This document shows positions 21,932 through 60,907 of a stretch of DNA of 64,000 nt, in pieces. Every line of letters begins with the position of its first letter. Positions within the stretch are counted from its first letter, which is position 1. Location of the stretch: positions 329,362 through 393,361 of the forward strand of contig JBBHKE010003519.1 in NCBI GenBank assembly GCA_037447655.1. Direction: 5' to 3'. This stretch comes from Zygnema cylindricum (lineage: Eukaryota; Streptophyta; Zygnematophyceae; Zygnematales; Zygnemataceae). The notes below the pieces were generated by a model, which was not told where the DNA came from, did no database searches, and worked only from the letters and a program-made list of their open reading frames with translations. The position numbers were made by a program, and so were the translations under genes.

Positions 21932-22930
21932 TTGATGAAAAAAAGAATTTTATATCATATCTTTTTTGGTCTATGGTTATTCTGTGGTTCTCATACTTGT
22001 AGTAGTCAATGAGAACTGGCAGGCAGCCATGGATGTCTCAAGCTTGCCACGGCTATCCCAGGCAGATAAGGAGACAGGCAGAAGACAAAGCCCCTGCAAA
22101 AGAATTCCTGCCGACACCAGGAATTGATCATATAAACTATAAAAGAAGTGTCATACGACGTAGCCGTTCGCTTTATCCAATAAGTCTTGATGGACATAGC
22201 CGTTCACATTATCCAATAGGTCTTGATGGAATGTTGCATACGTTTTATGTAATAAATAGTTAAATAATAACGCGACGAACATACGAAAAAAGAATGAACG
22301 TGAAACGTACAGTAGCGCACGAAATACTGTATCATACGAAACGACATTTAATTTCAACAGACGAAATCAAATGTCGTTCGCGATCGACGGCTCGCAGATG
22401 AGCCGAAATTCCAGAGTGAACATTTGGCGGTTTACAAGCCAATGTCGGCGGACGACACGTGGCTTGATATGGTTGGACAGCGGATATTACGAGGGGAGCA
22501 ACTACAGCTCAAGAACTAACACGCGTCAGCGTAGCGGCCATTCCGTACTATGACCGTTCAAGAAGTACAGCGCTACCTCTACCTTCTTGTACCTTACAGT
22601 CATTTGATTGGTTAGGGTCCACTAGTAGAACGTTATTAGAGGGAGCTTAGGACTATTGAAAAAATAAAAGTAGCCGCCACTCTCCCGGAGTGCTTCTGTA
22701 TTTATAGGCCATCTTTAGCCGGCCATAACTTAATGCTCGGGTGAGTAGTTTCATTGATTCTTTTTGTTGCGGACTCAGGAGAGTTTAGGATACACAAGGG
22801 TGTAATCGGTCTGAATTTTTGCGTGCCAGGGTGGCACTTATACATTGCCAAAGTCAAAAGTGCAAATATTATCTTAGAGGCTTCATATAAGCTGGACATT
22901 CTGTGGACCAATAGAGGTCACATGATTACA
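21932..22930 (+). repeat. Element G 5' LTR (degraded)
   Basis: Related along its length to the solo LTR K at 55486-56580. Shared blocks include TTTTATATC, the ACTTGTAGTAGTCAATGAGAA block, AGGCAGCCATGG, and the closing AATAGAGGTCACATGATTACA. Its start has decayed from TGTTGAAAA, so the left border is accurate only to a few bases. It ends directly at the primer-binding site at 22931. The A-box half of its antisense tRNA-like cassette is duplicated in tandem (about 36-bp unit, 22159-22230). Confidence 0.75.
22106..22192 (-). other. tRNA-like cassette in LTR G (degraded)
   Basis: Read on the minus strand there is an A-box-like TTATTGGATAAAGC (22183-22170) and a B-box-like TGATCAATTCC (22130-22120, 9 of 11 to consensus). 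It is antisense to the element. It is the weakest of the cassettes; alone it would not be convincing, but its position matches those in the other LTRs. Confidence 0.45.
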
Positions 22931-22943
22931 ATTTATGGGCCCA
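22931..22943 (+). promoter_or_regulatory. Primer-binding site of element G
   Basis: ATTTATGGGCCCA directly after the LTR end. It differs at two positions from the GGTTATGGGCCCA found in elements A and C, which is complementary to the initiator tRNA-Met anticodon arm. Confidence 0.6.
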
Positions 22944-23357
22944 CCATTAAAGGTGCCCATTTTCAATAGAACACGGTTCATATAGTGGGAAACCATGATG
23001 AGGGGTGCATTGTTTGAAAAACAGCTATGGGGCATTGTGAGCGATCGTGTGCGTCGACCAACTGGAAAATTGGGAGTTCCACCAGGGTTTGGAGGATCTC
23101 GATTCGCACGAGGATCTACGGAGGCAGAGTTGGTAAAAGATGTTGGAGAAAGCATCGTGTCAGACACAAGGAAGGAGAAGGGGAAGGAGAAACTCATACC
23201 AATGGCTACTAGACCGGTTCCGGTAGCAGATGTTCAAAAAACCGAAGCAAATGATCTTGAAATTTGGGATTTCAACAACACCGTGGCGACTCATTTTATT
23301 CTCAAGCGTCTTACTTAAGCAGTGGCTACACCTCATCTTCATGTGGACAGGTCACAC
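22931..23357 (+). pseudogene. Element G gag, N-terminal part
   Basis: Begins at a primer-binding-site-like ATTTATGGGCCCACC whose ATG is in frame with copia-type gag (MGPP-, then a VPIFN block). Stop codons interrupt it early (TAG at the WE position near 22985). The homology continues as LFEKQLWGIVSDRVRRP, a PPGFGGSRF block, and an FNNTVATHFILKRLT segment ending at a TAA. It breaks at CACAC (23353-23357), the target duplication of element B, and resumes at 48426. Confidence 0.8.
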
Positions 23358-24353
23358 TATTGAAATTAATAGATTTATAGAGTATTTTCTAGGTTTAAAA
23401 TGTTAGTATAAAAGAAAAAGAAAAAAGGACAGACAACCTGCCTACACCTCCTCTCTCTAGCCCCCATACTTGTTGTAGTCACTAAAGGATAGAGAGAGTG
23501 GTTGATCCATGGCTGCCTTAGTTCAACAGGCAGATACTTTTAAGGCTACTAAAAATATACCTGACGGACCCGAGATTTGATCCCGGTACCTGCGGTTCGT
23601 CTAGCTGGCCGATAGTGGTCAGCTTTATCCTACTAGACTAGGACCAATGCTAACTGCTATAGTATGTGATAGATATATATATATTTAGGAAGGAGAAAAA
23701 CCATTTAACTAAAACTGTGTACGGCGTACATGATACAGTTTTATGAATGTACCAATTCAAAACGAATACCACGCATTTTGTTTCGACAACGAAACAAATA
23801 TCGCGCAAGTATTTGTTACTTCAGATTGGCTCACGCATCATCGGCAACCTGAGAAATCTCCGGCGGGCGAAGTGACGCGCACCCTGAGCCACGTGGAGAG
23901 ATGACATTCGGTCATAGGAATTCCGTGGAATGTACGGACGAGTGAAAAGGAGACACGCGTCCGCTTAATAGTCCTGTCCTACATAGGCCGTATAAAAGGT
24001 ACACCGGCAGTAGTACTTTTTAGTACGATAAAGTAATCTGATTGGTCCGAACTTTAGTAGATAGAAGTTATTAGAGGAAATCAAGACTTAAAAATATTTG
24101 GTAGGCAGTCACCTCTCCCTTTGAGAGTTTGTACAAATTGGTATTTTTACTGCCTCATAACTTATCGCCTGGTTGGGCGTTTTCAGAGATTCTTTTTCCT
24201 ACGGACTCAAAGGAATCCAAGCTGCATAGGGGTGCATTCAGATTGTCAGCTTAATTGCCTGGCCAGCAGTGGCTGTGGGTTAAAAGTGGGCTAGTTAACA
24301 ACTATCTAGAGGCTTTCTGTATTCTATAGTCCAATGGAAGACACAGAATTCCA
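23358..24353 (+). repeat. Element B 5' LTR
   Basis: About 996 bp, homologous to 47340-48420. The first bases have decayed from TG to TA (TATTGAAATT). Blocks shared with the other LTRs: ACTTGTTGTAGTCACTAAAGG, CCATGGCTGCC, an antisense tRNA-like cassette, GACGTGG-type GC-box-like sequence, GAGAGTTTGTACAAATTGG, and the closing AATGGAAGACACAGAATTCCA. The last 20 bases contain an ATG that opens a frame into gag. Confidence 0.9.
23562..23648 (-). other. tRNA-like cassette in B 5' LTR
   Basis: Antisense to the element. On the minus strand, TAGTCTAGTAGG (23640-23629) fits the Pol III A-box consensus TRGYNNARYNGG at all 12 positions. GGATCAAATCT (23583-23573) fits the B box at 9 of 11. The latter lies in a potential T arm with stem CCGGG/CTCGG around a 7-base loop ATCAAAT. 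The acceptor stem is not convincing, so this is a tRNA relic and not a clear tRNA gene. Confidence 0.7.
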
Positions 24354-24366
24354 GGTTATAGGCCCA
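24354..24366 (+). promoter_or_regulatory. Primer-binding site of element B
   Basis: GGTTATAGGCCCA immediately after the LTR. It is one base off GGTTATGGGCCCA, the complement of the initiator tRNA-Met anticodon arm; the change turns the ATG into ATA. Confidence 0.75.
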
Positions 24367-24431
24367 CCCTCTGGGGTACCCACTTTCAATGGATCTGGGT
24401 TCATCTATTGGGAAGCCATGATGATGGGAGC

Positions 24432-25320
24432 TGAAATTCTGTGGTCTCCATTGACCCACAGAATGAGCAGCGTATGTAAAGCCTCTAGGATAATATTTGC
24501 CCCTTCTACTTTCCCGCTGAATAAGCGCCGCCCAGGCACACAAATATTCTGACCACTCTCACCCTTGTGAGGACAAGACTCCCCTGAGTCAAACGCAAAA
24601 AGAATCACTGAATTTGCTCACCTGAGCAGTAAGTTATGGCTGGTCAAAGATGACCTTTATAGTTACAAGCTCTCTTAGAGAGAGAGGTACCTAAATATTA
24701 CTAAGTCTCGGTCTGCCTACTCACGACTACCTACTATTAAACCCTAGTCCAATAGGAACACTATAAAGTACAAGAAAGTACAATGGGCGATGTACTTATT
24801 GTACAACCATTGTACGACAAGGTCTACAAGGTGACACCTGTCATATCGGAAGCCATGGTTCCTCCTCCCATCTTCTCCGGTATCAAATAATGTGGCGCCA
24901 CGTGGCACCCCGTGACGCTATATCCGTATGCCGCCAAAAATCTCACTTTGCGTGGCGGCTATAATGGCGACCGTCCGATCAAAACATATTTTACACGGTT
25001 AAGATTCGCGTACATTGAGAAATTGCTCCTTTTGGTTAGTCTGCTGTTAATTAGCTGTTTCGTTAATGTTTATATATTTATGAAACCCGTCACGTGTATC
25101 TCGTAACGCCTTAATGGTTAAGGCGTTAGACTAATAAATAATCTAGAGGTCATAGGTTCAAATCTAGACCTAGGCATCATTTTAGCCAAAATACCCTAAA
25201 ATGCAAAAACTGGCACCTTCTAAATATGGCGGCAGCCATGGCGCGCCTTTGGTCCTCACTCTCTTTCTTTAAAGCGAAACTAAAATAGGGAAGTGAACTA
25301 TTAATTACCTCTTTTCAACA
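24432..25320 (-). repeat. Element A 3' LTR
   Basis: 889 bp; in element sense it runs TGTTGAAAAG to GAATTTCA. Nearly identical to 29751-30641. It contains the antisense tRNA-like cassette at 25103-25176 and the GCCATGGCTGCC block. Confidence 0.95.
25103..25176 (+). other. tRNA-like cassette in A 3' LTR
   Basis: Plus-strand, thus antisense to element A. TTAATGGTTAAGGCG (25111-25125) resembles a D arm/A box. GGTTCAAATCT (25155-25165) matches the B box at 10 of 11. Between them, TTAGA-CTAATAA resembles an anticodon stem and loop of the Ile(AAU) type, but 4 extra bases enlarge the loop. The T stem is poor. The other LTR copy has drifted in the anticodon region. Confidence 0.7.
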
Positions 25321-25328
25321 CTCCCCTT
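25321..25328 (-). promoter_or_regulatory. Polypurine tract of element A
   Basis: AAGGGGAG in element sense, directly against the 3' LTR start TGTTGAAAAG. It is the plus-strand primer site for reverse transcription; the same octamer sits at the equivalent place in element C. Confidence 0.85.
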
Positions 25329-25333
25329 AATTC

Positions 25334-28300
25334 CTAGTCACTTTCCAATTTTAATCCACAATTTTCTCTGCAATAAATCAACTTAGGGGAAGGCACTGCT
25401 TTTGTCATCATGTCTGCAATCATTTCTCTATCTGTTTTATGAACCAGTTTAATAATTTTATTTTCTACCTTCTCTCTGACAAAGCTTAGTCTAATATCCA
25501 TATGCTTAGCTTTGAAGTGATGTTTCGGATTAGCTGCAATCGAGATAGCAGCTTCATTATCACAAAAAACATGTTGAGTTCCAGACTTCATGAACCCAAG
25601 TTCTTCAAGAAGAGATTTAACCCAAATTAATTCTTTGGTGGCAGCACAGGAAGCCATGTATTCAGCCTCCATAGTGGACTGAGCAACTACTTTTTGTTGC
25701 TTGCTACTCCAACAACATGCACCGGATCCAATTTGCAACACATATCCAGTCGTACACCTCCTTAAAGGCACATCTCCATAACTGGCATCACTCCAAGTGG
25801 TGATGTCAGTGTGCTCCCCTCCCAAATGCAACCATAATTCCCTTGTCCCCACCAGATACCTCATCACCCTTTTGGCAGCCTCCCAATCTCTCTTTCTTGG
25901 TTCATTTAGATTTCTACTAAGGACACCTACAGCTGCAGCTATATCCGGACGGGTACAGTTCATAAAATATATTAAACTGCCTACAATATGCCGATAAGGG
26001 ATATTTTCCACAAATTTTCTTTCTATCTCGTCCATCTCATCATTAATGATGAATATTCCTCCCTCTTCACTCCCCTCACTCACTTTCTTCAAATCCATGG
26101 GAGTAGTACATCCGTTTGCTTTCTCCATTTGAAATTTTTCTAGCATATTACCGATTGCTTCTTTTTAAGTGAGTCTTATAATTCTATTCCCTCTATCTCT
26201 CTCCATTTGAATTCCCAAAATGTACTTTGCTTCGCCAAGATCTTTCATATCAAAACTGCTTCTAAGATCCCGTTTTAGTTTGTTAATTTTATCTAAGGAC
26301 TTGCTTAAGACTAACAAATCATCCACATAAATAGCAATAAATATCACTCCATTCTCATCCTCAAATAAATATATAGAGTGATCTGAACTAATTCTGATAT
26401 ACCCCAAACCGGTCAGAAATTCGTCGAGCTTTATATTCCACTGTCGCGGGGCTTGCTTAAGCCCATAGAGTGATTTTATCAGTTTGCAAACTTTGTTTTC
26501 TTCCCCACTTTCCACGAATCCTTTCGGTTGCCTCATGTAAATTTCTTCTTCCAACTCTCCGTGCAAAAAGGCAGTTTTAATATCCATCTGGTGGATTTCC
26601 ATATCCTCCGCTGCGGCTATACTTAAAAGGATTCTAACAGAAGGAAATCTGACTACAGGTGCAAAGGTTTCTTCGTAGTCTATCCCCTCTTTCTGTGTAT
26701 AACCTTTTGCAACTAACCTAGCTTTGTACCTCTCAATGGTATTATCCGGGTTTAATTTAAGTTTAAACACCCACTTACATCCGATCGGTTTTCGGTCCGG
26801 TGGACAATCTACCAACTCCCATGTATTGGCTTCCATGATAGAGGCCATTTCTTCATTTATAGCTGTGATCCACCGGCTACTTTCTGGAGTGTTTATGGCC
26901 TCTAAGTATGTTTGAGGTTCATCTGGGTGAGACATCTTTGTGAGTTGGTTATTTACTTGTCTTTCTTGAAGTCGTTTACTACTTCTTCTTTCCCCTTCAA
27001 AATCGGACGCCGGTATGGAAGGCATTCTTGGGTTTCGTTTTGGGAGATTTTCAGCTTCCCTATCTTCTAATTCCGGTGTCTCATCAAGTTCCTCATCGGT
27101 TTCCACTTCGTATTGTGGCTTTGCCTCGGATGTTGTCCTTTCCTCCTTCTCCTTTGGTAGATCTGCAGATTTTTCTCTTTCTCCCTCTTCCTTCTCTTCA
27201 TTTTCAAAGTCAAAGTCAGAAAATTGATCCGTTTCAAATCTGATTTTGACTTCCTTATTATATTTTGAATGGATCAATGGACTTCTCTTCATTCATCACT
27301 ACTATATGTTTTACCAAAATTATATCTCTCTTTTTCAAGTCATACACTCGGTATCCTTTTGTGCTCTCATCATATCCTACAAGATATCCCGGTTTCCCTC
27401 TTCCCTCTAACTTCCATTTAGTCTTATCGGAATCCAAACTGTAGACTTGACTTCCGAACACTCTCAAACTAAACAAATCAAGCTTTCTTCCTGTCCACCT
27501 CTCATACGGAGTTTCCTCCTTATTTGTTGAAGTTAAGACTCTATTTTTGATGAAATTAGCATAGTTCATAGACTCAGCCCAAAACTGCAGCCCTATCCTC
27601 TTATCACTTAACATACTTCTGGACATATCTCCTAAAGTTCTATTCACTCTTTTTGCTACTCCATTTTGTTCTGGATTATAGGGAACAGTTTTCTCATGAT
27701 GAATTCCTTCTTCTTTAAGATATTCTTCAAAATCCCTTGAGGTGTATTCTTTCCCATTATCACTTCTTATCTCTTTTATTGAGGTTTCATGTAGCTTTTC
27801 ACTCCATACTTTATACTCTTTGAAACATCTTAATACCTCTGACTTATGTCTGAGAAAGTATACCTTCGTGTATCTAGACCAATCATCTGTGATAGTTCAC
27901 ATCCATCTCTTCCCCCCATGTGAAGCATACCTAGCAGGTCCCCAAACATCAGTGTGAACTAGATCTAATACTTTCTCTCTCCTAAATGTGGTTGCCTTTG
28001 GAAATGGAAGTCTATGAATCTTCCCTTGGGCACATCCACTACAATCATCAAAGGTCTCATCATCTTCAAAAGTAATACCCTCCACTATTCCTTTTTTTTT
28101 CATTTTCTTTAATCTATCTAGATGCACATGCCCCAACCTTTTATGCCAAAGCATCATCTCACTTGAACACGAGTAGAGAACACTCTTTTCATTGCAAAGT
28201 AGAATTCTGAACATTCCTTGACTGCCCTTCTCAGCTATGAAATAAACCTCATTATCAAAGCTTGTTGTGAAGATTCCTTTCCTAGTTCCTGTTTCAAACT

Positions 28301-28790
28301 CCTTTTCATCTAGGACAGCTGTTGAGACTAGGTTCTTGCTAAGCTGTGGAATGCAAAGAACGTCTGAGAGTGTTAGAATTGAGGCCTTTCCATCAACTAG
28401 AACCTTCAAGTCAACAGTTCTAACAAGACTTGTGGTTTCTACTCTACCATCTCCGTACTCTATCTCAACTGTTGGGATCTTTCTCAGTTTAGTGAACCAC
28501 CGCTTATCTTTGCACATATGCATTGAAGCCCCTGAGTCTATGATCCACCCATCCTCGGGTGGATCCCTCTTACCTCCGAAAGCACACTTTTGTCTCCGTG
28601 GAATGTCGACATGCTTTTCAGTGTTTTTCGGATTAAGGAGAAGCTCCTCAAGCTCCTCTTCAGGTTCAGTTTTTTCTTCCACTTCCTCATCAAGAACTTG
28701 AGTCAGGAAAGCCTTTTTCTTTCCTCTGTCCTTTGAGGTTCCTTGACCATCTTTCAGTCGAAGATCTGCAAGTGTTACACAATCTGCCAT
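25334..28790 (-). pseudogene. Element A pol (protease, integrase, RT, RNase H), lightly damaged
   Basis: In order: aspartic protease WIIDSGASMHMC; integrase zinc region WHKRLGH...CSGCAQGK and core (HTDVWGP, RSDNG, a PEQNGVA block); a Glu-rich linker; RT with CKWVFKLKLNPD, QMDIKTAFLHG, SLYGLKQAPRQW and the catalytic YVDDLLVL; RNase H with TWSDASYGD, STMEAEYMASC and an FCDNEAAI block. Lesions visible: a TGA just after GGKRWM near 27896, a one-base frameshift in the AAAA run near 27263 between SIDPFK and the linker, and a TAA in the LTQKEA motif at about 26165. Otherwise the frame is open to the natural stop at 25334. These enzymes act in the cytoplasmic particle and the nuclear integration complex. 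Confidence 0.92.
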
Positions 28791-29770
28791 ATAGTGTCCC
28801 GGTTTCTTGCAGAAGTGACATAATCCTCCTCGAGAAGTTCCTCTCCCCTGTCTATCAAATCTGCCACCTCTTTGTCCTCTTCCACCAAAGTGTGATAGGG
28901 ATCTTTCCCTCTCCCCTCATCACGCTTCTGCCAATCAGCTCCTGCAAACAATGCTTGAACACTTGGACTCCCTCTCCTAAGCTCTATGGTGCTTTCTTTC
29001 ACTAAAATCATTCCCACAGTGTCATCCCAATTCCAATTGCTATCTCCTATGTCCTGCAATCGGTTAATGATATTCTCATACTCTTCAGGTAGTTTCATCA
29101 TTAATGTGTTCACTCTTTGTCTCTCAGACCATGAGTTACCTGCACTCTCTAACTCTCCAAACAATGCTCCTAAATCATTGCAATAATTATCCATACTTCC
29201 TCCCTTATAAGTATAAGTTGCAATCTTATTTTCTGCCAACTGTTGCTGCTGCAATGATCCACTCTTATATTTGTTAACTAGTGATATCCAAATCTGAGAT
29301 GACGACTTGACATGCATAAGTGGAATGGCAATGCCCTTTGCTACACTTTTAAGAATTAAGAGCTTAGGAACCTTGTCTTTGTAGTTCCACTTTTCATACT
29401 CTGATCTTTCGGTCTGAACCCTTGTCGTTGCTGCTGGTGGTGCTGCTGGCGGTATCGCCTTCGGCAATGGTGTTACTTGAGTTGCAACTCCTTCCTTTTC
29501 TCCTTCCATGAAAATCTCTTCTCCGTCCTCATCTTCATCCTCGGTGATGGTGGCAGATGTTCTACCAACTGTAGAGGCGGAGGTGCCAGAAAAACGTGTC
29601 CCTCCAAACCCAGGTGGAGGTGGGCATCGAATTTGTCCAGACACTATGCCCCATAGATGCTTCTCAAAAAGTTCTCCCTCCATCATCATTTCCCAATAAA
29701 GAAAGTCTGATCCATCAAATATTGGCACCCTAGAGGGTGGGCCCATAACCTGAAATTCTGTGGTCTCCAT
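28775..29770 (-). pseudogene. Element A gag
   Basis: The open frame begins MET at 29770, inside the 5' LTR end, and reads through the primer site into MGPPSRVPIFDGSDFLYWEMM. It continues as a copia gag with the UBN2-type core (ILKSVAKGIAIPLMHVKSSS, SLVNKYKSGSLQQQQLAENK, KLPEEYENIINRLQDIGDS). Near 28905 a one-base shift throws the frame out, so the Gly/Arg-rich linker and the CCHC zinc knuckle CHFCKKPGHYMADC (C-x2-C-x4-H-x4-C) are read in another frame that joins pol. In related copies the knuckle is in frame with gag, which suggests a single gag-pol frame originally. An alternative start is the in-frame ATG inside the primer site at 29746. Confidence 0.88.
29738..29750 (-). promoter_or_regulatory. 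Primer-binding site of element A (tRNA-Met anticodon-arm type)
   Basis: In element sense GGTTATGGGCCCACC directly abuts the LTR end TTTCA. It is complementary to the anticodon arm of initiator tRNA-Met (around the CAU anticodon), not to the tRNA 3' end. Drosophila copia has the same GGTTATGGGCCCA next to its 5' LTR and is primed by a tRNA-Met half molecule. The ATG is in frame with gag. Confidence 0.85.
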
Positions 29771-30641
29771 TGACCCACAGAATGAGCAGCGTATGTAAAG
29801 CCTCTAGGATAATATTTGCCCCTTCTACTTTCCCGCTGAATAAGCGCCGCCCAGGCACACAAATATTCTGACCACTCTCACCCTTGTGAGGACAAGACTC
29901 CCCTGAGTCAAACGCAAAAAGAATCATTGAATTTGCTCACCTGAGCAGTAAGTTATGGCTGGTCAAAGATGACCTTTATAGTTACAAGCTCTCTTAGAGA
30001 GAGAGGTACCTAAATATTACTAAGTCTCGGTCTGCCTACTCACGACTACCTACTATTAAACCCTAGTCCAATAGGAACACTATAAAGAACAAGAAAGTAC
30101 AATGGGCGATGTACTTATTGTACAACCATTGTACGACAAGGTCTACAAGGTGACACCTGTCATATCGGAAGCCATGGTTCCTCCTCCCATCTTCTCCGGT
30201 ATCAAATAATGTGGCGCCACGTGGCACCCCGTGACGCTATATCCGTATGCCGCCAAAAAGCTCACTTCGCGTGGCGGCTATAATGCCGACCGTCCGATCA
30301 AAACATATTTTACACGGTTCAGATTCGCGTACATGCAGAAATTGCTCCTTTTGGTTAGTCTGCTGTTAATTAGTTGTTTCGTTAATGTTTATATATTTAT
30401 GAAACCCGTCACGTGTATCGTTTCGTAACGCCTTAATGGTTAAGGCGTAAGGCTATAAATAATCTAGAGGTCATAGGTTCAAATCTAGACCTAGGCATCA
30501 TTTTAGCCAAAATACCCTAAACTGCAAAAACTGCCACTTTCTAAATATGGCGGCAGCCATGGCGCGACTTTGATCCTCACTCTCTTTCTTTAAAGCGAAA
30601 CTAAAATAGGGAAGTGAACTATTAATTACCTCTTTTCAACA
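29751..30641 (-). repeat. Element A 5' LTR
   Basis: 891 bp, the partner of 24432-25320. The promoter should lie here. The end of the LTR in element sense, ATGGAGACCACAGAATTTCA, supplies the first codons of gag. Confidence 0.95.
30424..30497 (+). other. tRNA-like cassette in A 5' LTR
   Basis: Same cassette as at 25103-25176, with the B-box GGTTCAAATCT at 30476-30486. Differences cluster in the anticodon region (GTAAGGCTATAAATAATCT), while the A-box-like and B-box parts are unchanged. Confidence 0.7.
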
Positions 30642-31381: not shown

Positions 31382-32429
31382 TGAAACTCTGAGACCTTCA
31401 TAAGTCCTCAGAGTGGACAGCTTCCAAGAAGCCTCTACGATAATCCTGACCCCTTTGTGTTTAAGCAAAAATAACTGCCACCCTGGCAGACAAAAACTCT
31501 GACCACCTTCACCCTTGTGAAGGCAAGACTCCCTTGAGTCGATAGCAAAAAGAATCTCTGAATTTGCTCCCCTGAGCAGTAAGTTATATAGGGTCAAAGT
31601 TGACCTTTTGCACAGAAGCTCTCTGGGAGAGAGGGTCCTATCTTCTAATTTTTCTAAGTCCTATCTCTCTCACAAACTCTATCTACTGATGTACGGAACC
31701 AATCAGAATACAGTTTCGTACGCAAAAGTACAGCTGCCGGTGTACTTTATGTACGGACATTGTACGACATGGCCTAAATGTCCACACGTGGAATATTCGC
31801 ATTCGCTCCTTTAATCCTTGGAGATGCCGTGCTCCAATGTTACATCGCCACGTGTCATCCGATATGTCGATGCCCACAAACCGCCGAATTATCCTTCCGC
31901 GATCTCGGCGCTAATTCCGGCCGTCCGATTAAACTCGCATTTGATCGTAGCCGTAATAAATACATGCGCGGTATTTGTTTTGCTTACGAAATCAATGCGC
32001 GGTATTGATTTCTTATCCGTACCGCAATTCGTACTTTTACACTACCATATCTATGTATCCCGTTAACAGTTATAGTTAAATGATTTATCCTGCGTGTACA
32101 TGTTTAAATCATTATCGTACTATATGCTATGTAAGACTACTTCTAGACTTAACGGCTAAGGCTACCGGCTATCTATTCTCCAACGGCCGGCAGGTACCAT
32201 GATCAAATCCTGTCGCCGGCACATACCTTTTAGTAATTAATCCCTAGACTAATATAAATTTCCCGTAAACCTGAGGATAGCCTAGGTAGCCATGGCTCTA
32301 GCTTCCTCTCCAATTTCTCAGTGACTGCGACAAGTTTGAGAGTTGGAGAGAGAAGTTAGAGGTAGACTGCCTCGGCTTCTTTATTTCTATTCAGACCTAG
32401 AAAATACTTAAAAACCATTAATTTCTACA
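31382..32429 (-). repeat. Element C 3' LTR
   Basis: 1048 bp, closely matching 36783-37830. In element sense it runs TGTAGAAATTAATGG to GAGTTTCA. It contains the ACTTGTCGCAGTCACTGAG and GCCATGGCTACC blocks and an antisense tRNA-like cassette. Confidence 0.95.
32141..32222 (+). other. tRNA-like cassette in C 3' LTR
   Basis: A-box-like TAGACTTAACGG (32144-32155, about 9 of 12) and B-box-like TGATCAAATCC (32200-32210, 9 of 11). A GCCGGCAGG...CCTGTCGCCGGC hairpin encloses the B box. Antisense to the element. Confidence 0.65.
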
Positions 32430-32437
32430 CTCCCCTT
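32430..32437 (-). promoter_or_regulatory. Polypurine tract of element C
   Basis: AAGGGGAG in element sense, immediately before the 3' LTR start TGTAGAAATT; identical to that of element A. Confidence 0.85.
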
Positions 32438-32442
32438 ATTTT

Positions 32443-34239
32443 TTAGTCAATCTTTAATTTCAGACCACACTTCTCCCTGCAAAAAATTAGCTTAGGGGAA
32501 GGCACAGGTTTGGTCATCATATCTGCTACCATCTCACTATCTGGTCGGTACTCTAAACTGATTATTTTATTTTCTACTTTCTCTCTAACAAAGCTGAGTC
32601 TGATGTCCATATGTTTGGCTTTAAAATGATGTTTAGGATTGGCAGAAATAGCGATTGCTGCCTGATTATCACAAAATATTTTCTGCACACCACTCTTAAG
32701 GTGACCAAGCTCACCAAGCAAAGACTTGACCCACATCAATTCTTCTACAGCAGAGCAAGAGGCCATATACTCAGCCTCCATGGTGGACTGAGCAATAACC
32801 TTTTGTTGTTTGCTACTCCAACAGCAAGCCCCATCACCCACATATAATACATATCCAGAAGTGCATCTCCTCATCGGAGCATCACCATAACTAGCATCAC
32901 TCCAAGTAGAGATGTCAGTATTCTCCCCACCCAAATGCAACCTTAGATCCCTAGTTCCTATGAGGTATCTAAGAACTCTCTTAGCTGCCTCCCTATCGTT
33001 GTAAGTGGGAGCATTTCGACTTCTACTCAGCACTCCTACAGCTGCAGCTAAATCCGGCCGGGTACAATTCATAAAATAGATTAGACTTCCCACTACTTGT
33101 CTTTAAGGAATAGTCTGCATGAACTTCTGTTCATCAGGAGATAATTCCTTGTCTAAGACTATGACTCCTTCTTCCTCACTCCCATCACTTCCCTTCTTCA
33201 ATTCCATTGGAGTTGTACAACTATTAGCTTTATCCATTTGAATTTTTTCAAGCATGTTCCCTATTGCTTCTTTTTGAGTCAATCTTATAATTTTTCTTTT
33301 TCGGTCTCTCTCTACTTGAATTCCCAAAATATATTTTGCTTCCCCCATATCCTTCATTTCAAATCTCCCCTTAAGATCGGTTTTCAGTTTATTAATTTTT
33401 TCCATTGATTTACTTAAAACAAGCAAATCATCAACATAAATTGCAATAAATATAAAACCTTCCTCATCTTCGAAAACATAGATTGAGTGATCTGAGCTGA
33501 TCCGGATATATCCCAGACCGGTAAGAAACTCATCAAGCTTCTTATTCCACTGTCGAGGCGCCTGTTTCAAACCATAAAGAGATTTAATCAGCCGGCATAC
33601 CTTACTCTCCTCTCCTTCTTCCACAAACCCTTCGGGTTGTCGCATGAAGATCTCCTCTTCCAATTCTCCATGCAAAAAGGCTGTTTTGATGTCCATCTGG
33701 TGCACTTCCATGTCTTCCGTTGCTGCCAGGCTGAGAAGTATGCGAACGGAGGGAAATCTGACCACCGGGGCAAAGGTTTCCTCGTAGTCAATTCCCTCTT
33801 TTTGTGTAAATCCCTTTGCCACTAGTCGGGCCTTGTAGCGCTTGATTGTGTTATCTGGGTTCAGTTTTAATTTAAAAACCCACTTACAACCGATTCGTTT
33901 TCGGTTAGGTGGACAATCCACCAGCTCCTAAGTATCGGCTGCCATAATTGAGGCCATCTCTTCAATGATGGCTGTCTTCCACCGATTTTTTTCTGGACAA
34001 GTCATCGCCTCTCCATAAGTTTGAGGTTCATCTTGATGAGATAGTTTTGTTACCTTGTTATTAACCTGTTTTTCTTGCTGTCTTTTACTACTTCTCCTTC
34101 CCCCCTCAAAATCTGAGGCCAGAATAGATGGTTCTCGTGGATTCTTTCGAACAAACTCGGTTTCTCCCCTATCCGTTGATTCCGAATCAATTTCCACCAC
34201 GTCTTCCGCTTCCGGTAGAGTTGTCACTAGAGTTTCCAC
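32443..34239 (-). pseudogene. Element C RT and RNase H
   Basis: Linker (SILASDFEGGRRSSKR, DEPQTYGEAM), then RT with CKWVFKLKLNPD, QMDIKTAFLHG, SLYGLKQAPRQW and YVDDLLVL, then RNase H with TWSDASYGD, STMEAEYMASC and an FCDNQAAI block, ending KCGLKLKID at the natural stop. The frame is broken by a TAG in the NTWELVDCPP motif (near 33925) and a TAA before RQVVGSLIY (near 33103). All catalytic motifs otherwise remain readable. Confidence 0.9.
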
Positions 34240-36022: not shown

Positions 36023-36046
36023 GGCTTGGCCACTCTTTCCTCCCCT

Positions 36047-45220: not shown

Positions 45221-45222
45221 AT

Positions 45223-47542: not shown

Positions 47543-47630
47543 CTGACAGACCCGGGATTTTATCCCGGTACCTGCGGTTCTTCAAGAAAGCTTATAGTAG
47601 TCAGCTTTATCCTACTAGACTAGGACAAAT
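47543..47630 (-). other. tRNA-like cassette in B 3' LTR
   Basis: On the minus strand: A box TAGTCTAGTAGG (47622-47611, full match to TRGYNNARYNGG) and B-box-like GGATAAAATCC (47565-47555). The T arm has a perfect 5-bp stem CCGGG/CCCGG around a 7-base loop ATAAAAT, better preserved than in the 5' LTR copy. Confidence 0.72.
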
Positions 47631-47647
47631 GCTAAATGCTATAGTAT

Positions 47648-47651
<4 letters not shown>

Positions 47652-47725
<74 letters not shown>
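47652..47725. repeat. TA microsatellite in B 3' LTR
   Basis: About 74 bp of nearly pure TA dinucleotides with one AAAT interruption. The 5' LTR has only about 12 bp at the same place. Confidence 0.95.
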
Positions 47726-47727
<2 letters not shown>

Positions 47728-51630: not shown

Positions 51631-52620
51631 TGTTGAAATCAAAAGATTTAGAGGGTATTTTCAAGGTCTGAATAGATTAAGTAAAAGTGCAGGAAGTGTG
51701 CCTCCACCTTCTCTCTCTAGCCCCAATAGTTGTTGTAGTCATTGGAGGTGAGAGAGAGTGGTGGAGCCATGGCTGCCTTAGCTACACAGGCAAGACTCTA
51801 CAGTGACATAAGTCACTCTTAACAAAAAGGTTGAGTTTGTCAGGACTCGAACCTTCAATCGAGCTAGGCGTAGCCATCAGCTCTAACCGGTGTATCGTAG
51901 AAGTTCGTTAAGTATATAGGGTTTGATTGTTATTTAAACATTGCTAAGCAACCTTAACCCGATTAACGAAATTAGAGATTACAAGCATAAAGACTCGTTG
52001 TAATATAGTGCAAACAAAGACCCGCACGAAAAAAATGTACCAGACATTTATTTTAACGGCTAAAATTAAAAGCGCGTTTGGATCCGACGGCACGCATCAT
52101 CGCCGAGACCTCGAAATGGTCGTTTTGGCGGTTTTCGGGCGTGAATGACCTGGCCCCACGTGGCACGATAGAATTGGAAAGCGGGAATCCTGGGAAGCAT
52201 GGGAATAAATCTAGAGGAGACAAACGTCTACTCCATGGCCCCATCGTACACTAGCCGTACGGAAAGGACATCAACCATAGTACCTTTTTGTACTGTACAG
52301 TTCTCTGATTGGTTCGTACATCAGTAGATAGGGATTGTGAGAAGGATTTAGGACTTAGAGGATCGAGAAGGTAGCCGCCTCTCTCCCATTGAGCTTGTAT
52401 AAATATTGTCATCTTTTCCACTTGATAATCAATCGCCTAGTTGAGCAATTTTAGTGATTCTTCATCGTGTGGACTCGAAGGAGTCCAGACTGCAAAAAGG
52501 TGCAATCTCATTGTCTATTTGCTTTCTTGGGTAGCAATGGTCCTAGTTGAAGAAGGGTTAGTCAAAAACTATCTAGAGGCTTCTTGAAATCTGTTGTCCA
52601 ATAGGGGACACATAGTTCCA
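51631..52620 (+). repeat. Element I 5' LTR
   Basis: 990 bp, TGTTGAAATC to CATAGTTCCA. It shares the GTTGTAGTCATTGGAGG and GAGCCATGGCTGCC blocks with the others and has an antisense tRNA-like cassette. Confidence 0.88.
51829..51897 (-). other. tRNA-like cassette in I LTR
   Basis: On the minus strand the B box GGTTCGAGTCC (51853-51843) fits GGTTCRANNCC at all 11 positions. The A-box end GGTTAGAGC lies at 51888-51880. Spacing and the TTCGAGT loop are tRNA-like, but the T stem has only about three pairs and no acceptor stem is evident. Confidence 0.7.
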
Positions 52621-52633
52621 AGTTATGGGCCCA
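52621..52633 (+). promoter_or_regulatory. Primer-binding site of element I
   Basis: AGTTATGGGCCCA next to the LTR; one mismatch to GGTTATGGGCCCA. Its ATG (52625) opens the gag frame MGPPSRVPIFNGS. Confidence 0.75.
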
Positions 52634-53289
52634 CCCTCTAGGGTGCCCATCTTCAATGGATCTACGTTCATTTATTTGGAAGCCATGATGGTAGGGGCTT
52701 TGTGTGAAAAACGATACTGGGGTATTGTCGGTGGACAAGTGAAACGACCATCTCACAGAATCCCACCAAGGTATAGTGAAGTGAGGTTTTTCTGCAGCAA
52801 CATCTGCCCCAACGGAGGAGGCAGACGACGGGGATAATAGTGTGTCTGAAAAGGGAAAAGGGAACGAGACACCTCTCACTTCTATTGCCACGGCACCCGG
52901 AGCGGTGGTTGTGAAGACCGAGGAAATTGATATTCAAACGTGGGAATACACAAACATGTTTGCCTGACATTTCATTTTGAGGCACCTCACTCAGGCTTTA
53001 GCAACTTCTCATCTTCATATTCTTAAGGCCGAGGAGTTGTGGGTGACTTTAGTGGAGATATATAGAGCTAGTACTATTCAAGAGCTCCAGTTGGCCGAGC
53101 AAAGGCTAAGGGATTACACTTACAAAGGGGGAAAATATTGGATCACTGTAATGACCTCTCTTGTTTGTATATGGAGATGGAAAGTGCTGGGTGGACAGGT
53201 ACAATGAAGATGAAAGTCAACACTCTCATCATGAAGTTTCTTGATGAATATGAGAACATACTGTACCGAGTGCAAGAAATGGATGACAG
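52625..53289 (+). pseudogene. Element I gag, N-terminal part
   Basis: MGPPSRVPIFNGSTFIYLEA, ALCEKRYWGIVGGQVKRP, then a frameshifted Ser-rich linker. A gag core follows (RHLTQALATSHLHILKAEEL, LVEIYRASTIQELQLAEQRL, one-base shift near 53140, then CNDLSCLYMEMESAGW and KFLDEYENILYRVQEMDDS). It is cut at GACAG (53285-53289) by solo LTR J. Confidence 0.85.
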
Positions 53290-54461
53290 TGAAGCTCTGT
53301 GTGCTCCATTGCCCACAAAAATCGCAGATCGAAATGAAACTAATCTTGATAGCGCCGACTCTAAGTTGATATAAACCCAAATGACTGACCCTTTGACAAT
53401 CAGTAACTCATTATAGCTTCACCCTTATGAAATAAGACTTATGTGTGCTCAGTTCCACCACATAATGCAAATTTAGAATATGAGTTTTGGACACATTCAC
53501 CCACTTTGACTTTCCCTTAGAAATGCAGCCACCTTGTCAGGTAAAAACTCTGAACGACTACACCCGTGTGTAGTGTGGACTCCCTTGAGTCTGCAGCAAA
53601 AAGAATCACTGAAAATGGTCAAGTAAATTGATAGTTATGAATGGTCAAAGATGACCTTTTGTATAGGAGCTCTCTCGAAGAGAGGCTGCTAACTACTAAA
53701 TTTTCTAAGTCCTATCTCTCTCTAAAAACTATCTACTGACGTACGGCGCCAATCAAATTACTGTGATGTACAGAAAAGTACAGGAGTTGGTGTACTTTCT
53801 GTACGGCCATTGTACGACATGGCCAAAATGTCGACATATGTCATATCCCGATTTGTTCTCATAATCTCCGGAGTTACCGCAATCTAACGTTGTCGGCCAC
53901 GTGTCATATGACGTGGCGATGACAGTAAAACGCCAAAAGTACATATTTTGTGATTGCGGCGCCTATTGTGGGCGTCTGATCAAAACCGGATACAACTATA
54001 GCCGTTGAAAATAAACACGCAGTATTTGTTTCGCGTTCAAAACAACCGCGCGTTATCAATTTCATATAATACATTAAACCGTACATTGTACTATTCAAAA
54101 CTATATCTATGCATTACGTATCTATTTCCCGTTAAATGAACTAGTCTACGTGTAACAAAAGAAATATTTGTCAAACTTATCATATCCTACCACTAATCTA
54201 GACTTATGGGTTAAAGCTAACGGGTGATGTGATAGACGGCAGGTACCCGAATCAAATCCTGGGTCCGTCAAACCTTTTAGGTAACTCTATCAAGATTTGC
54301 CTTTCTGTCCTTTTTGGACAGCCTAGGAAACCATGGATTTAACTCCTCCTCAAGTCTTCAGTGACTGCGACAAGTGTGGGGAATTGAGTGAAGAGTTAGA
54401 GGCAAGCTGTCAACCTTTTATTTTACAATCTCTAAACCTAGAAAATACTTAAATTTCAACA
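53290..54461 (-). mobile_element. Solo LTR J in element I gag
   Basis: 1172 bp, TG...CA. It is related to the LTR of element C (shared AAAAAGAATCACTGA, the ACTTGTCGCAGTCACTGA block and CCATGG) but clearly diverged. No internal region is attached on either side; gag resumes in register on the right. Flanks GACAG and AGCAG are a decayed duplication. This is the product expected from recombination between two LTRs. Confidence 0.82.
54196..54270 (+). other. tRNA-like cassette in solo LTR J
   Basis: A-box-like TAGACTTATGGG (54199-54210, about 10 of 12) and B-box-like GAATCAAATCC (54249-54259, 9 of 11). Antisense to LTR J. The T-arm loop ATCAAAT is kept, with a partial stem. Confidence 0.66.
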
Positions 54462-55485: not shown

Positions 55486-56580
55486 TGTTGAAAAGTGATA
55501 TTTTATATTCTACCTTTTTTGGGATCTTGCAGTTCTCATACTTGTCGTAGTCACTGAGAATTGACAGGCAGCCATGGCTGCCTTAGACAGATGAGAAGAT
55601 AGACAGAAGACAGGGCTCCTACAAAAGTTAGGTTGTAATAGACAGGATTTGATCCTGTGACCTCCAGCCAAAGATGTACGATTAGCAGTCCGCCATATCC
55701 ATTACGGCTTGATGAATCGATACATGTACTACATTTGATAAGTATTTAAAAACAACACAACGATATATTCTTTTTAACTACTTATAGAACGAAACGAAAC
55801 AAGGAACGTATGGTACCGCACGAAATAAATGAAACAACATTTGATTTCGACGGACGAAATTAAATGTCGCGATCGACGGCTCGCAAAGGACGAAGGAATT
55901 TTAAATGGTCAACACGGAATGTTGACCGTCGAAATTCAACGGTCAACACCGAACATTGACCGGTGAATTTCAACGATCAACATTTATTCAGCGCGCCGTT
56001 AGATCGAACGGCTGAAATTGATCGCCGGAAAAAGAACGGACGGCACGCGTGAGTGTCAGTATGCCAGGACGATTACCTGGGAACAACTCGGCGAAATGCA
56101 AGGAAATGACACGTGGCATCATCTTATGGAATAACGAAAGAGAAAAGAAACAAAATAACGTTGACCTATTAGCCACGTGGTAGACCGAAAGTGGTGTAGA
56201 ATATATCCGTACATAAAGTACGGCGGCTGGTGTACTTTGTATGTACAATAATTAGAGTACTTTAATTTTGATTGGTTAAGAGTAGCTATTAAGAGGTTTT
56301 CAAGACTAAGACCAAATTTTGAAAGTCCTCTCTCCCAGATGCCATCTGTATAAATATGTCGCCTTTGAACAACCATAACTTAATGCTCAGGTGAGCAAAT
56401 TCAGTGATTTTTTTTGCACCAGACTTAGGGGAGTCCAGGCAAAACAGAGGTGTAGTCGGTCAGAGTTTTTCCGCGCCAGGGTGGCACTAATTAATTGCCA
56501 AAGTCAAAAGTGCAAATATTATCTTAGAGGCTTCATATAAGCTGGATATTCCATGTACCAATAGAGGTCACAGAATTACA
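55486..56580 (+). mobile_element. Solo LTR K (G-type) in element I
   Basis: 1095 bp, TGTTGAAAAG to CAGAATTACA. Flanks GATAA and AATAA (one mismatch), and I coding sequence continues across (LDN-ELSLNENEFMQT). It is the same family as G's 5' LTR. It contains the best-preserved tRNA-like cassette of the window. Confidence 0.88.
55634..55705 (-). other. tRNA-like cassette in solo LTR K, Ser(GCU)-like
   Basis: On the minus strand (5' at 55705) the ends GTAATGG and CTATTAC form a 7-bp acceptor stem with one G-T wobble, followed by an unpaired A. The T arm is ACAGG/CCTGT with loop ATCAAAT, all five pairs intact. The centre GGACTGCTAATC matches the anticodon loop CTGCTAA of tRNA-Ser(GCU), followed by a long variable-arm-like stretch. 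The D arm is shortened and the anticodon stem has only two or three pairs, so a working tRNA is unlikely. Antisense to the LTR. Confidence 0.72.
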
Positions 56581-57268: not shown

Positions 57269-58270
57269 TGTTGAAATAAATAGTTTTTTGGTATTTTCTA
57301 GGTCTTAATATATTAGCGGAAAAAGAAACATGTAGGCAACTTGTCTTCATCTCTTCTCTCTTACCCCCATACTTGTTGTAGTCACTGAAAGAGAGAGAGA
57401 GTGATGGAGCCATGGCTTCCCCAGCTCCATAGACAAGGTTAGAGAGTGACCTTAAGTCACTCTCTACAAAAAGGTTGAGTCTAGCAAGACTCGAACCCCC
57501 GACCGATAGAGCGTGGCGTAGCCGTCCGCTCTAACGAGTATGTCGTAGATGTTTGCTAAAGTATATAGGGTGTGATTTATATTTAAACGATGTTACATCC
57601 CCTAATCCGATTAACAGAAATATAAATGTAACATCATAGAACAGGGTAAGATTCAGTGCGAAACAGAATCCCGCACGAAACAAATGAATCTGACATTTGT
57701 TTCGACGGATGATATTTAATGTCGGTTCTTATCCAACGACATACGTCCTCGCCGAGATCCCAAAAAGGTTAATTTGGCGTTTTGTGACGTGGCATGACCT
57801 GGAGCCACGTGGAAGGATGACATTCGGTCGTAGGAATTGCGAGGAACGTACGGACGAGTGAAAAGCGGACACGCGTCCACTTACTAGCCTTGTCGTACAT
57901 AGGCCGTACAAAAGGTACACCGGCAGTAGTACTTTTTTGGTGCGGTACATTAATCTCATTGGTCCGTACTTCAGTAGATAGAAGTTATTAGAGGGAATCA
58001 GGACTTAAAAATTTTTGGTAGGTAGTCACCTCTCCCTTTGAGAGTTTGTACAAATTGACATTTTTTATTGCCTCATAACTTATCGCCTGGTTGGGCGTTT
58101 TCAAAGATTTATTTTCGTGCGGCTCAAAGGAGTCCAGGCTGCACAGGGGTGCAGTCAGATTGTCTTTTTGTCTGCTTGGGTAGCAAGGGTTGCCATTGAA
58201 AGTGGGTTAGTTAATAACTTTCTACAGGCTTCCTGAATTCTGTAGTCCAATGGAGGACACAGAATTGCAA
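57269..58270 (+). repeat. Element L 5' LTR, mosaic of I-type and B-type
   Basis: 1002 bp, TGTTGAAATA to CAGAATTGCA. The first ~450 bp (including TAAGTCACTCT, AAAAAGGTTGAGT and the tRNA-like cassette) resemble the I LTR. From about 57740-57770 onward (GGCGTTTTGTGACGTGGCAT, GGCCGTACAAAAGGTACACC, GAGAGTTTGTACAAATTG) it matches the B LTR. This supports recombination between LTR families. Confidence 0.82.
57473..57543 (-). other. tRNA-like cassette in L LTR
   Basis: B box GGTTCGAGTCT (57497-57487, 10 of 11) and A-box end GTTAGAGCGG (57535-57526) on the minus strand, preceded by TCGGGGG. Same type as in LTR I; antisense to the element. Confidence 0.7.
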
Positions 58271-58283
58271 AATATAGGCCCAC
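58271..58283 (+). promoter_or_regulatory. Primer-binding site of element L (degraded)
   Basis: AAATATAGGCCCA after the LTR end; the core TATAGGCCCA is one base off the TATGGGCCCA of the intact sites, with further changes at the first two positions. Confidence 0.55.
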
Positions 58284-60094
58284 CCTCTAGAGTGCGCATC
58301 TTCAATGGATCAGGGTTAATCTATTGGGAAGCTATGATGTCAGGGGCTTTGTGTGAAAAACGATACTGGGGTATTGTTAGTGGACAAGTGAAACGTCCAC
58401 CTCAGGGAACACCATCAGAATTTGGTGGAATAAGGTTTCTGTAGCAACATCTCCTACAGCAAAGGAGGCAGATGACGGGGACAGCAGTGTGTCCAAAAAA
58501 GGGAAAGAAAAGGAGACACCTCTTACTCCTATCGCTCCTATTCCCACAACATCTGTAGCGGCGATCGTGAAGACCGTGGAGACCGATACTCAAATGTGGG
58601 AAGACACCAACATGGCTGCCAAGAACTTCATTCTAAGACATCTCACACAAGATTTAACAACTCCCCACCTTCACGTTTACTAAGCCGAGGAGTTATGGGT
58701 GAGTTTGATGGAGATCTATAGAGCTAGTAGAATTCAAGAGCTCCAGTTGGCAGAGAAAAAGTTGGGAAATTATACTTACAAAGGGGGAAAGATGTTAGAC
58801 TACTGTAATGATATTTCTTATTTGTATATAGAGATGGAGAGTGCGGGATGGACATGTACAATTAAGATGAAGGTTAACACTGTCATCATGAAGTTACCCG
58901 ACGAGTATGAGAATATAGTGAACACGGTACAGGGAATGACTAATAGTTCATGGATGTGGAAAACAATGGTCCGCATGATACTTCTGCAGGAGAACACAAT
59001 TAAAATCAGAAGAGGAGAAAAGAGCGTTCAAGCTGTAGCCGCCACAAGGGAGAGGTGGAGACTAGATCAGAAAAAAACCATACAAAGGACAAAGAGTTCA
59101 GCCAGGAGGACCAATGCCCCCAAAGGGCCTATGTCATTTTTGCGAAAAGCCGGGACACTTCATCGCATATAGTGTCATTTGTCGGAGCTGAGGCTCTAAG
59201 AGAATCATGGAGGGGGTTTTTCCAGGGGGAAGAAAAAGGCACTTTTGGTCACAAAGGTGATAGGAGACTCCGAGGACGAGTCCTCTGAGGAGGATGGGGA
59301 GTTCCTTCTTCACGAGAGTTTGGAGGAGAAGGAGATCCCTCAGAGACAGAAGTGTACCCCTGAAGCAATTCGGGAAGCTCCACAAGAAGGATGGATCATT
59401 GACTCAGGTGCATCCATACATATGTGTGGTGACAAGGACCTCTTCACTAAGCTAAGAAAAATCCCTACAGTAGAAATAGAGTATGGGGATGGGAGAGTGG
59501 TTACTACAGATCTAGTGGGATTAGTTGATCTTAAAGTCTTAGTGGAGGGTCACACTTCTATACTCACTTTCTCAGATGTGCTCTATATTCCTCAACGGAG
59601 TAAAAATCTTGTCTCTACATCTATTTTAGATGACAAAGAATTTGATACCTTCACTGGAAAGGGAATCTTTACAGCTAAGTATGGGGATGAGGTTTACTTC
59701 ATTGCAGATAAGGGTAACCAAGGAATGTTTAGGCTTAACCTGAGTAATGAAAAGAAGAATGCTTATTATGTTGGTGTCCCAAAGTTGATGATTTTGCATA
59801 AGGGGTTGGGGCATGTGCATTTTGATAGGTTGAGGGAAATAAAGAAGCTTGGTGTAAGGGAAGGCATTCAGTTTAGTGACAATGAAATGGTGGATGATTT
59901 TAGTGGCTGGCCCAAGGAAAGGCTCACAGACTTCTTTTTCCTAAAGGCGCCACATATAGAGGAGAGAAGGTACTTGATTTAATCGACATAGATATCTGGG
60001 GAACAGCAAGGGTACCCTCAATTGGAGGGAAGAGGTATATGTTGAGAATTACTGATGACTGGTCTAGATATTCTAGAGTAAACTTCCTAAAAAC
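58271..60094 (+). pseudogene. Element L gag, protease and integrase start, truncated
   Basis: Gag opens in the LTR (MEDTELQNIGPPSRVRIFNG) and stops at 58441. The core continues (NMAAKNFILRHLTQDLTTPH, LQLAEKKLGNYTYKGGKMLD, MKLPDEYENIVNTVQGM). Frameshifts around the knuckle region (59140-59240) follow, then WIIDSGASIHMCGDKDLFTK with an intact D-S-G. The pre-integrase domain reads HKGLGHVHFDRL and has lost a CxxC cysteine (DDFSGW). TITDDW-type core reads LRITDDWSRYSRV. At 60094 the integrase is cut and joined to the middle of a B-type LTR. Confidence 0.87.
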
Positions 60095-60907
60095 CTACGG
60101 TTCGTCAAGTTGGCCGATAGCGGTCAACTTTATCCTATAAGACTAGGACCAATGCTAAGTGATATAGTATGTGATGGATATATATATATTTAGGGAGGAA
60201 CAAAATCTAATTAACTAAAATTTTATACGGCATGCATAGATACAGTTTTATGAAAGTACGAAGTATGATTCTATTTTAAAACAGATGCCACGCATTTTGT
60301 TTCGACAGTGAAACCAATGTCGCGCAAGTATTTATAACAGCTCAGATTGCGTCTCGCTGCAAATCCAAAAGCGCACATCATCGCCAAAATCCCGGAATGT
60401 TCACCTTGGCGTTTTGTGACGTGGCATGACTTGGAGCCACGTGGAGAGATGACATTTGGTCATGGGAATCCGAGGATTGTACGAACGAGTGAAAAGCAGA
60501 CACGCATCCGCTTAATAGCCATATCGTACATAGATCATACAAAAGGTACATCGCCAATAGTACTTTTTGGTACGGTACAATAATCTGATTGGTCCGTACT
60601 TCAGTAGATAGAAGTTATTAGAGGGAATCAGGACTTATAAAATTTTGGTAGGTAGTCACCTCTCCCTTTGAGAGTTTGTACAAATTGGCATTTTTATTGC
60701 CTCATAACTTATCGGCAGGTTGGCCATTTTCAGTGATTCTTTTTGCTACGCAATCAGCGGAGTCTAGGCTGTATAAGGGTGCAGTCAAACTTTCACTTTG
60801 CCTTCTTGGGACAGTAGTGGTTGTGGCTTGAAGTGGGTTAGTTAAATACTATCTAGAGGCTTCCTGCTTCCTGTATTCTGTGGTCCAATAGAGGACACAA
60901 AATTGCA
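60095..60907 (+). repeat. Element N 5' LTR, 3' portion only (B-type)
   Basis: Begins in mid-LTR (CTACGGTTCGTCAAGTTGGC matching B's CTGCGGTTCGTCTAGCTGGC) and runs to ACAAAATTGCA. The first ~250 bp of the LTR are missing through a deletion that fused it to L integrase. Only the A-box half of the tRNA-like cassette (TAGTCTTATAGG, 60145-60134, minus strand) is left. Confidence 0.85.

Follow-up and report, generated by a model that had tools for sequence, protein, structure and literature searches.

Nested Copia-type elements carrying an antisense module

The window analyzed here, a 64-kb stretch of Zygnema cylindricum contig JBBHKE010003519.1, is occupied from ~21.9 kb onward by nested long terminal repeat (LTR) elements, and all 11 LTRs with a readable 5′ end carry, antisense to their element, an A-box-like block followed by a B box and a run of four or five T residues. 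The original prediction, made from the sequence alone, had described the two blocks in eleven LTRs, and our analysis bears this out in every one of them, at 156-285 nt from the LTR 5′ end. The LTRs concerned begin on the plus strand at 21932 (E), 23358 (G), 47340 (G3), 51631 (K), 55486 (J), and 57269 (M), and on the minus strand at 54461 (N), 25320 (B3), 30641 (B5), 32429 (A3), and 37830 (A5), mostly with TGTTGA or a sequence close to it; the letters E to N are our own naming and differ from those used before.

Self-comparison of the window delineated two clear LTR pairs on the minus strand, namely those of element B (24431-25320/29750-30641, 97.8% identity) and element A (31382-32429/36783-37830, 96.0% identity), as well as the pair of an unrelated element, C (41576-42511/45228-46160); further plus-strand LTR copies are diverged and nested inside each other. 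Element B spans 24432-30641 (~6.2 kb) and element A spans 31382-37830 (~6.4 kb), both with gag and/or RVT_2 frames. Among eight stop-to-stop frames of the element region, seven gave Copia-type Pfam matches (gag, Pol_BBD, gag_pre-integrase, or RVT_2). The coding parts of element B are split over separate frames, and its frame 25334-26164 had no Pfam match, in a search not specifically aimed at the integrase core.

25321-29750, minus strand: internal region of element B (Pfam search of stop-to-stop frames)
28775-29803, minus strand: gag frame of element B (Pfam)
27897-28916, minus strand: Pol_BBD and gag_pre-integrase frame of element B (Pfam)
26165-27292, minus strand: RVT_2 frame of element B (Pfam)

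The pol region of element G contains a 425-bp tandem duplication (39352-40203, copies 95.5% alike). Element C (41576-46160, minus strand) has LTRs that are 94% alike, with ~2.7 kb between them, and is without the module.

Architecture and position of the module

With box positions chosen by eye, the A-box-like block begins 213-285 nt and the B box ends 156-220 nt from the LTR 5′ end, the two boxes being separated by 33-46 nt, and TTTT or TTTTT follows 14-18 nt past the B box in all 11 LTRs. The module thereby has the composition of a type-2 RNA polymerase III (Pol III) unit, in which the A box is followed at tRNA-like spacing by the B box and then by a terminator of four or more T residues. 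Moreover, a TATA-like motif (TTTAAATA, TTTATATA, or TATATATA) begins 38-43 nt ahead of the A box in 9 of the 11 modules, so that the observation stands in a more specific form than originally described, with a TATA-like motif and a terminator besides the two boxes. In the module alignment, the invariant or near-invariant columns comprise (i) GG-TA--GC on the A-box side, (ii) an invariant T at the place of the anticodon loop, with a near-invariant C and A alongside, and (iii) the B-box letters and the CA just before the T-run; the variable loop carries AGGT in most families.

22098-22194, minus strand: module of LTR E (element plus; LTR ~21932-22930); the weakest case, p 0.054
22195-22235, minus strand: extra tandem A-box half-copy in LTR E (module model, 18.9 bits)
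23551-23651, minus strand: module of LTR G (element plus; LTR 23358-24353); A box TAGTCTAGTAGG, B box GGATCAAATCT
47533-47633, minus strand: module of LTR G3 (element plus; LTR from 47340); B box GGATAAAATCC
25098-25184, plus strand: module of LTR B3 (element minus; LTR 24432-25320); the tRNA profile's best match in the window
30417-30505, plus strand: module of LTR B5 (element minus; LTR 29751-30641); boxes, module model, and tRNA profile
32134-32231, plus strand: module of LTR A3 (element minus; LTR 31382-32429); boxes, module model, and tRNA profile
37535-37632, plus strand: module of LTR A5 (element minus; LTR 36783-37830); boxes, module model, and tRNA profile
51822-51909, minus strand: module of LTR K (element plus; LTR 51631-52620); B box GGTTCGAGTCC
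54192-54278, plus strand: module of LTR N (element minus; LTR ~53433-54461); not matched by tRNA profiles
55623-55721, minus strand: module of LTR J (element plus; LTR 55486 to ~56580); sub-threshold Rfam tRNA match
57466-57557, minus strand: module of LTR M (element plus; LTR from 57269); boxes, module model, and both tRNA profiles
60092-60156, minus strand: A-box half of the module in an LTR truncated at 60093 (module model, 30.5 bits)

The last of these confirms a truncated twelfth copy that had been predicted to keep only its A-box half. One sequence quoted in the original prediction as a B box, TAGTCTAGTAGG, is actually the A box of its family, in which the B box reads GGATCAAATCT (G) or GGATAAAATCC (G3). 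In LTR G3, a long TA run (47650-47720) lies exactly at the module's TATA-like motif; that of the sister LTR G is short.

Because an RNA polymerase II (Pol II) TATA box in LTR G (LTR position 634) sits ~350 nt downstream of the module, we place the module in the unique 3′ (U3) region, so that the genomic RNA would lack it at the 5′ end and contain it at the 3′ end. The module points away from the element in the 5′ LTR, whereas that of the 3′ LTR is directed against the terminal part of the genomic RNA. Given this placement and direction, general LTR anatomy implies that it should be unable to drive the element's own RNA.

Statistical controls and shared ancestry of the modules

The B-box pattern GGWTCRANTCY, whose W was set after the sequences had been seen, occurs seven times in the 64 kb, in all seven cases within a module and antisense (shuffles: mean 1.14, 0/100 reach 7), and is missed by one base in four modules (E, G3, N, and A3). 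Exact GGTTCRANTCY gave four matches in the window, all in modules; allowing one mismatch, this looser pattern was not enriched (21 matches against a mean of 16.35, a count reached by 17/100 shuffles). When each LTR was compared with its own shuffles for a textbook A box, B box, and T4 run, 10 of the 11 passed at p<0.05 in the antisense direction (E, 0.054), as opposed to none of the 11 on the sense strand and neither of the two control LTRs of element C (C3 and C5) on either strand. Among eight representatives, the T-run occurred in all eight (chance per LTR, 0.005-0.102) and the TATA-like motif in six (chance, 0.067-0.139 each).

Shared ancestry was evaluated by a leave-one-group-out analysis over seven groups, in which a profile of the other groups scanned the window for the omitted group's module. 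The omitted modules were recovered with E-values of 8e-10 (E), 1e-7 and 5e-6 (G), 3e-12 (J), 1e-11 (N), 4e-8 and 4e-6 (B), 2e-12 and 1e-11 (A), and 0.033 and 0.036 (K/M). The truncated copy at 60092-60156 was found by all of these profiles, with an E-value of 0.054 when group G was left out and 3e-8 or better otherwise. The full module model recovered the 11 modules, the truncated copy, and the half copy at 22195-22235, with nothing further in the window up to an E-value of 10; in a scan of viral contigs, 17 sequences matched the pattern, none of them a relative.

Judged by these profile scans, at least six of the seven groups share a homologous module, and its constant antisense orientation therefore counts as one inherited event rather than eleven. 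The orientation had been offered as independent evidence, a use that fails, since LTRs descending from one ancestor must share it. Of the two origins originally proposed, a single ancestral capture agrees with the leave-one-group-out homology, and many replacements do not hold as a general rule, the K/M pair alone being distant enough to accommodate them. We consider it likely that the module was captured only once.

Conservation within the module falls on the promoter boxes and the terminator. Measured as mean pairwise identity over the eight representatives, the 37 box columns reached 0.71, the 22 columns between the boxes 0.35, all other columns 0.48, the upstream columns 0.45, and the downstream columns 0.53. 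Such a pattern suits selection on protein-binding signals, and not on an RNA.

Likeness to tRNA genes

Two tRNA profiles were used, the first built from 18 tRNA references and the second from 14 E. coli tRNAs taken from a database. The first gave 21 matches in the 64 kb, the best eight of which were all modules and all antisense (18.7 down to 7.7 bits, against 7.5 bits for the best of 60 shuffled windows); K ranked 10th, E 13th, and N was absent. The second gave 16 matches, headed by M, B3, B5, and K, with J in seventh place and six modules absent; only M, B3, and B5 rose above the shuffled maximum of 8.5. In pairwise comparison with 21 tRNAs, 10 of the 11 modules scored significantly (p 0.025 or less; E, 0.29). 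We consider it very likely that the module is tRNA-derived. The best-scoring isotype among these references varies by module (Arg, Cys, Asn, initiator Met, and plastid Arg). The D arm suggests tRNA-Arg as the source, which the scores do not bear out for all modules.

Intact tRNA genes were rejected: ARAGORN called none, Rfam reported no tRNA at its gathering score, nor any at E-values up to 10 over 20000-64000, and searches of narrow stretches matched in J only. A cloverleaf with a paired acceptor stem was not found across the modules, J alone having a full-length, sub-threshold match. The outermost D-stem pair is GC in all 11 modules. The covariation score was reached by 5/500 shuffles, and sliding by one column scored nearly alike (0.216 versus 0.220). 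Six modules folded singly gave z-scores from -4.76 to -0.04 and no common shape. Plant tRNA genes are described as having upstream TATA and CAA motifs, internal A and B boxes, and a downstream poly(T); just 22-32% of the genes carry the TATA, compared with 67-72% for poly(T) (PMC11700998).

Primer-binding sites and relation to known elements

29736-29750, minus strand: primer-binding site of element B, GGTTATGGGCCCACC (pattern match)
22931-22945 (plus), 24354-24368 (plus), 36768-36782 (minus), 52621-52635 (plus), and 60908-60922 (plus): like primer-binding sites (pattern match)

The sequence GGTTATGGGCCCACC has six matches with 0-2 mismatches (shuffles: mean 0.68, 0/100 reach 6), and we take it to be complementary to initiator tRNA around the anticodon, as in half-molecule priming. 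The primer-binding site of element C reads TGGTATCGGAGC, unlike the other six, and presumably fits the 3′ end of initiator tRNA. A role of the module as a priming aid, which had been suggested, is not borne out: the longest exact match of a primer-binding site or its complement to a module is 7 nt. Among plant lineages, Osser, Bryco, and part of Gymco-II are reported to use half-tRNA-Met priming (PMC6317226), and the present elements resemble them in combining a Copia-type reverse transcriptase with a primer-binding site for half the initiator tRNA; the available sections of that paper, in describing these lineages, do not mention a tRNA-like part in the LTR.

Among open-licence papers, the closest published case is Helenus (TRIMp3), from which the present module differs in size, coding capacity, and orientation. 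Kojima 2024 (PMC10886601) describes Helenus as non-coding terminal-repeat retrotransposons in miniature (TRIMs) of 311-1263 bp with tRNA-like LTRs, with one plant case, Selaginella, and presents the tRNA-like part as the element's own promoter. As in the present LTRs, (i) the tRNA-like sequence has A and B boxes and conservation centered on them, (ii) folding of the RNA gives no support to a functional tRNA, and (iii) in fungi, Copia partners have a primer-binding site matching the anticodon loop of initiator tRNA (PMC10886601). Unlike Helenus, the elements here are ~6.2 and 6.4 kb long with gag/RVT_2 frames, and the unit is antisense in all 11 LTRs, where Helenus, going by the wording of that paper, has it on the same strand (PMC10886601). 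The same paper argues that long autonomous partners have to rely on Pol II and probably do not have LTRs of this type, and notes a fair number of Repbase LTRs with similarity to part of a tRNA, of which only TRIMs below 1000 bp were followed up; the word antisense does not occur in it (PMC10886601). Since the follow-up was restricted to TRIMs, longer cases may sit unreported in Repbase. Cassandra resembles the present LTRs in that a Pol III promoter and terminator are conserved in the LTR of a plant element, and differs in being 5S-derived, short, and non-coding, with its own transcription starting there (PMC10886601).

In the open-licence literature, we found no antisense tRNA-like unit in a coding Copia element. 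The original remark, that no described Copia lineage is known to be defined by such a module, holds as far as these papers go, with the qualification that the related Helenus idea is already in print (PMC10886601).

A further parallel is offered by extra-TFIIIC sites and tRNA-gene insulators, where B-box DNA exerts an effect on chromatin through bound TFIIIC or Pol III. Those are host loci, unlike the predicted sites here, which lie inside LTRs.

Proposed origin and function, and alternatives

The reading that we favor is that the module is a degenerate unit derived from a tRNA gene, captured once in the U3 of a Copia lineage with half-tRNA priming and probably kept as a working antisense Pol III/TFIIIC site. 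Because the modules are homologous (K/M less surely), the common ancestor of this Copia group would have captured one tRNA-gene transcription unit in U3, which its descendants inherited. The unit would sit on the upstream side of the Pol II promoter, facing away from it, and would comprise the TATA-like motif, A box, B box, and T-run terminator; its tRNA fold has decayed, and the protein-binding and stop signals have been retained. TFIIIC/TFIIIB and Pol III may still bind it, and from its sequence we judge that the unit is probably still able to recruit Pol III/TFIIIC. The earlier suggestion that antisense Pol III promoter activity is selected is accordingly favored, though unproven: the blocks are tRNA-like, antisense in 11/11, and conserved as promoter blocks.

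The most likely benefit would be a boundary of open chromatin that separates the element's own promoter from silenced repeats alongside; a terminated antisense RNA of ~90 nt would arise as the product or as a by-product. Antisense dosage control would be the second choice, as the unit of the 3′ LTR is read counter to the end of the genomic RNA; provided that the unit is active, we lean slightly toward the boundary over a role of the antisense RNA. More tentatively, each LTR might be a two-polymerase LTR, with a live divergent Pol III gene of tRNA origin, retained across diverged families, serving as a portable chromatin boundary and also supplying a short antisense RNA against the mRNA 3′ end. 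An active unit would mean that complete coding retrotransposons, and not just miniature ones, took up and kept a tRNA promoter, and used it against the direction of the element's own transcript. It would also offer a testable case of a mobile element that brings a boundary or self-limiting signal with it, could give rise to spurious or new Pol III units throughout a plant genome, and would mark a Copia lineage in seed-free plants, which have been little studied.

Several observations weigh against a working unit of this kind. At the level of the signals, the A boxes are poor in several families and their register is ambiguous, modules E and N lack the TATA-like motif, LTR E is borderline both in the box test (0.054) and in the tRNA pairwise scores (p 0.29), and the Fisher value over the eight representatives, 3.6e-9, is overstated since the groups are related. 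At the level of tRNA likeness, module N was unmatched by either tRNA profile, and Rfam searches of narrow stretches gave a full-length match in J (55634-55705) of 18.5 bits against a cut-off of 29 and no match in B5, M, or G3. A cloverleaf covariance model from 13 E. coli tRNAs, run unfiltered over 21000-64000, ranked J (13.5 bits, E-value 0.071) and B3 (11.6 bits, E-value 0.26) first, and after them a fragment of K and then matches other than correctly oriented modules, one of which overlaps G3 on the wrong strand; RNAalifold retained four T-arm pairs (-0.61 kcal/mol) and no shared cloverleaf. As for conservation, two U3 islands nearer the LTR 5′ end than the module, GGCAGCCATGG and TCAGTGACTACNACAAGTATG (read antisense; e.g., at 55530-55585), are conserved as much as the boxes or more (0.86 and 0.77), and the LTR pairs, with few changes, do not change more slowly inside the module (2/92 versus 14/796 and 3/102 versus 39/946).

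The main rival, which we regard as unlikely, is a passive relic: a tRNA pseudogene or a tRNA-derived short interspersed nuclear element (SINE), inserted antisense in the ancestral LTR, would now be functionless, with boxes alike through recent ancestry. Descent alone would explain the constant orientation and place, the fold is lost, the few changes in the LTR pairs show no constraint, and a SINE insertion is the origin that Kojima proposed for Helenus (PMC10886601). Relic status sits poorly with the difference in identity, within the same stretch, between the boxes (0.71) and the columns between them (0.35). A SINE body, moreover, must be read through behind its tRNA head, whereas the T-run stands directly behind the tRNA-like 3′ end in 11/11 modules, an arrangement more in keeping with a tRNA gene than with a SINE head; nor was a SINE body or tail recognized in the alignment, no SINE library having been searched.

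An improbable alternative is that the conserved blocks serve Pol II as regulatory sites on the sense strand of U3 and look Pol III-like only when read backwards. Regulatory sites are commonplace in the U3 of LTR elements, and the other equally conserved U3 islands need another cause in any case. General tRNA profiles, however, rank modules first in the 64 kb, the anticodon-loop T, C, and A, the AGGT variable loop, and the 3′ CA also fit a tRNA, and the T-run and TATA-like motif lie at tRNA-gene distances.

Independent captures, in which families acquired different tRNA sequences at the same place, are less probable again. They would account for the differing best isotypes, for the match of M to plastid tRNA-Arg as its best, and for K/M, which are weakly like the others (E-values 0.033 and 0.036) and have near-canonical box spacing; yet six of the seven groups are recovered by the others with an E-value of 5e-6 or better for every copy, and the matches behind the isotype calls are short and degenerate. 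Chance matches in LTRs of high AT content, to which the window-wide loose B-box count and the borderline LTR E would be congenial, were rejected as barely credible in view of the strict B-box count, the box test, the module model, the leave-one-out homology, and the tRNA profile ranks.

Other features of the window

Outside the element region, 778-1366 and 5398-5990 are two copies, 88.5% alike, of what looks like a tandem gene duplication; the minus strand of the second copy codes for a fatty acid hydroxylase domain. Among the 36 database relatives of this frame, the named ones include no seed plant and come from algae, a liverwort, lycophytes, and ferns, so that the host is probably a seed-free land plant or an alga closely related to these. 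A diverged array of short tandem repeats lies at 3357-4363, with start-to-start steps of ~24 and 91-94 nt. Finally, two minus-strand frames at 17381-18371 match UbiA prenyltransferase, one strongly and one under Pfam's cut-off, and are probably exons of a host gene.

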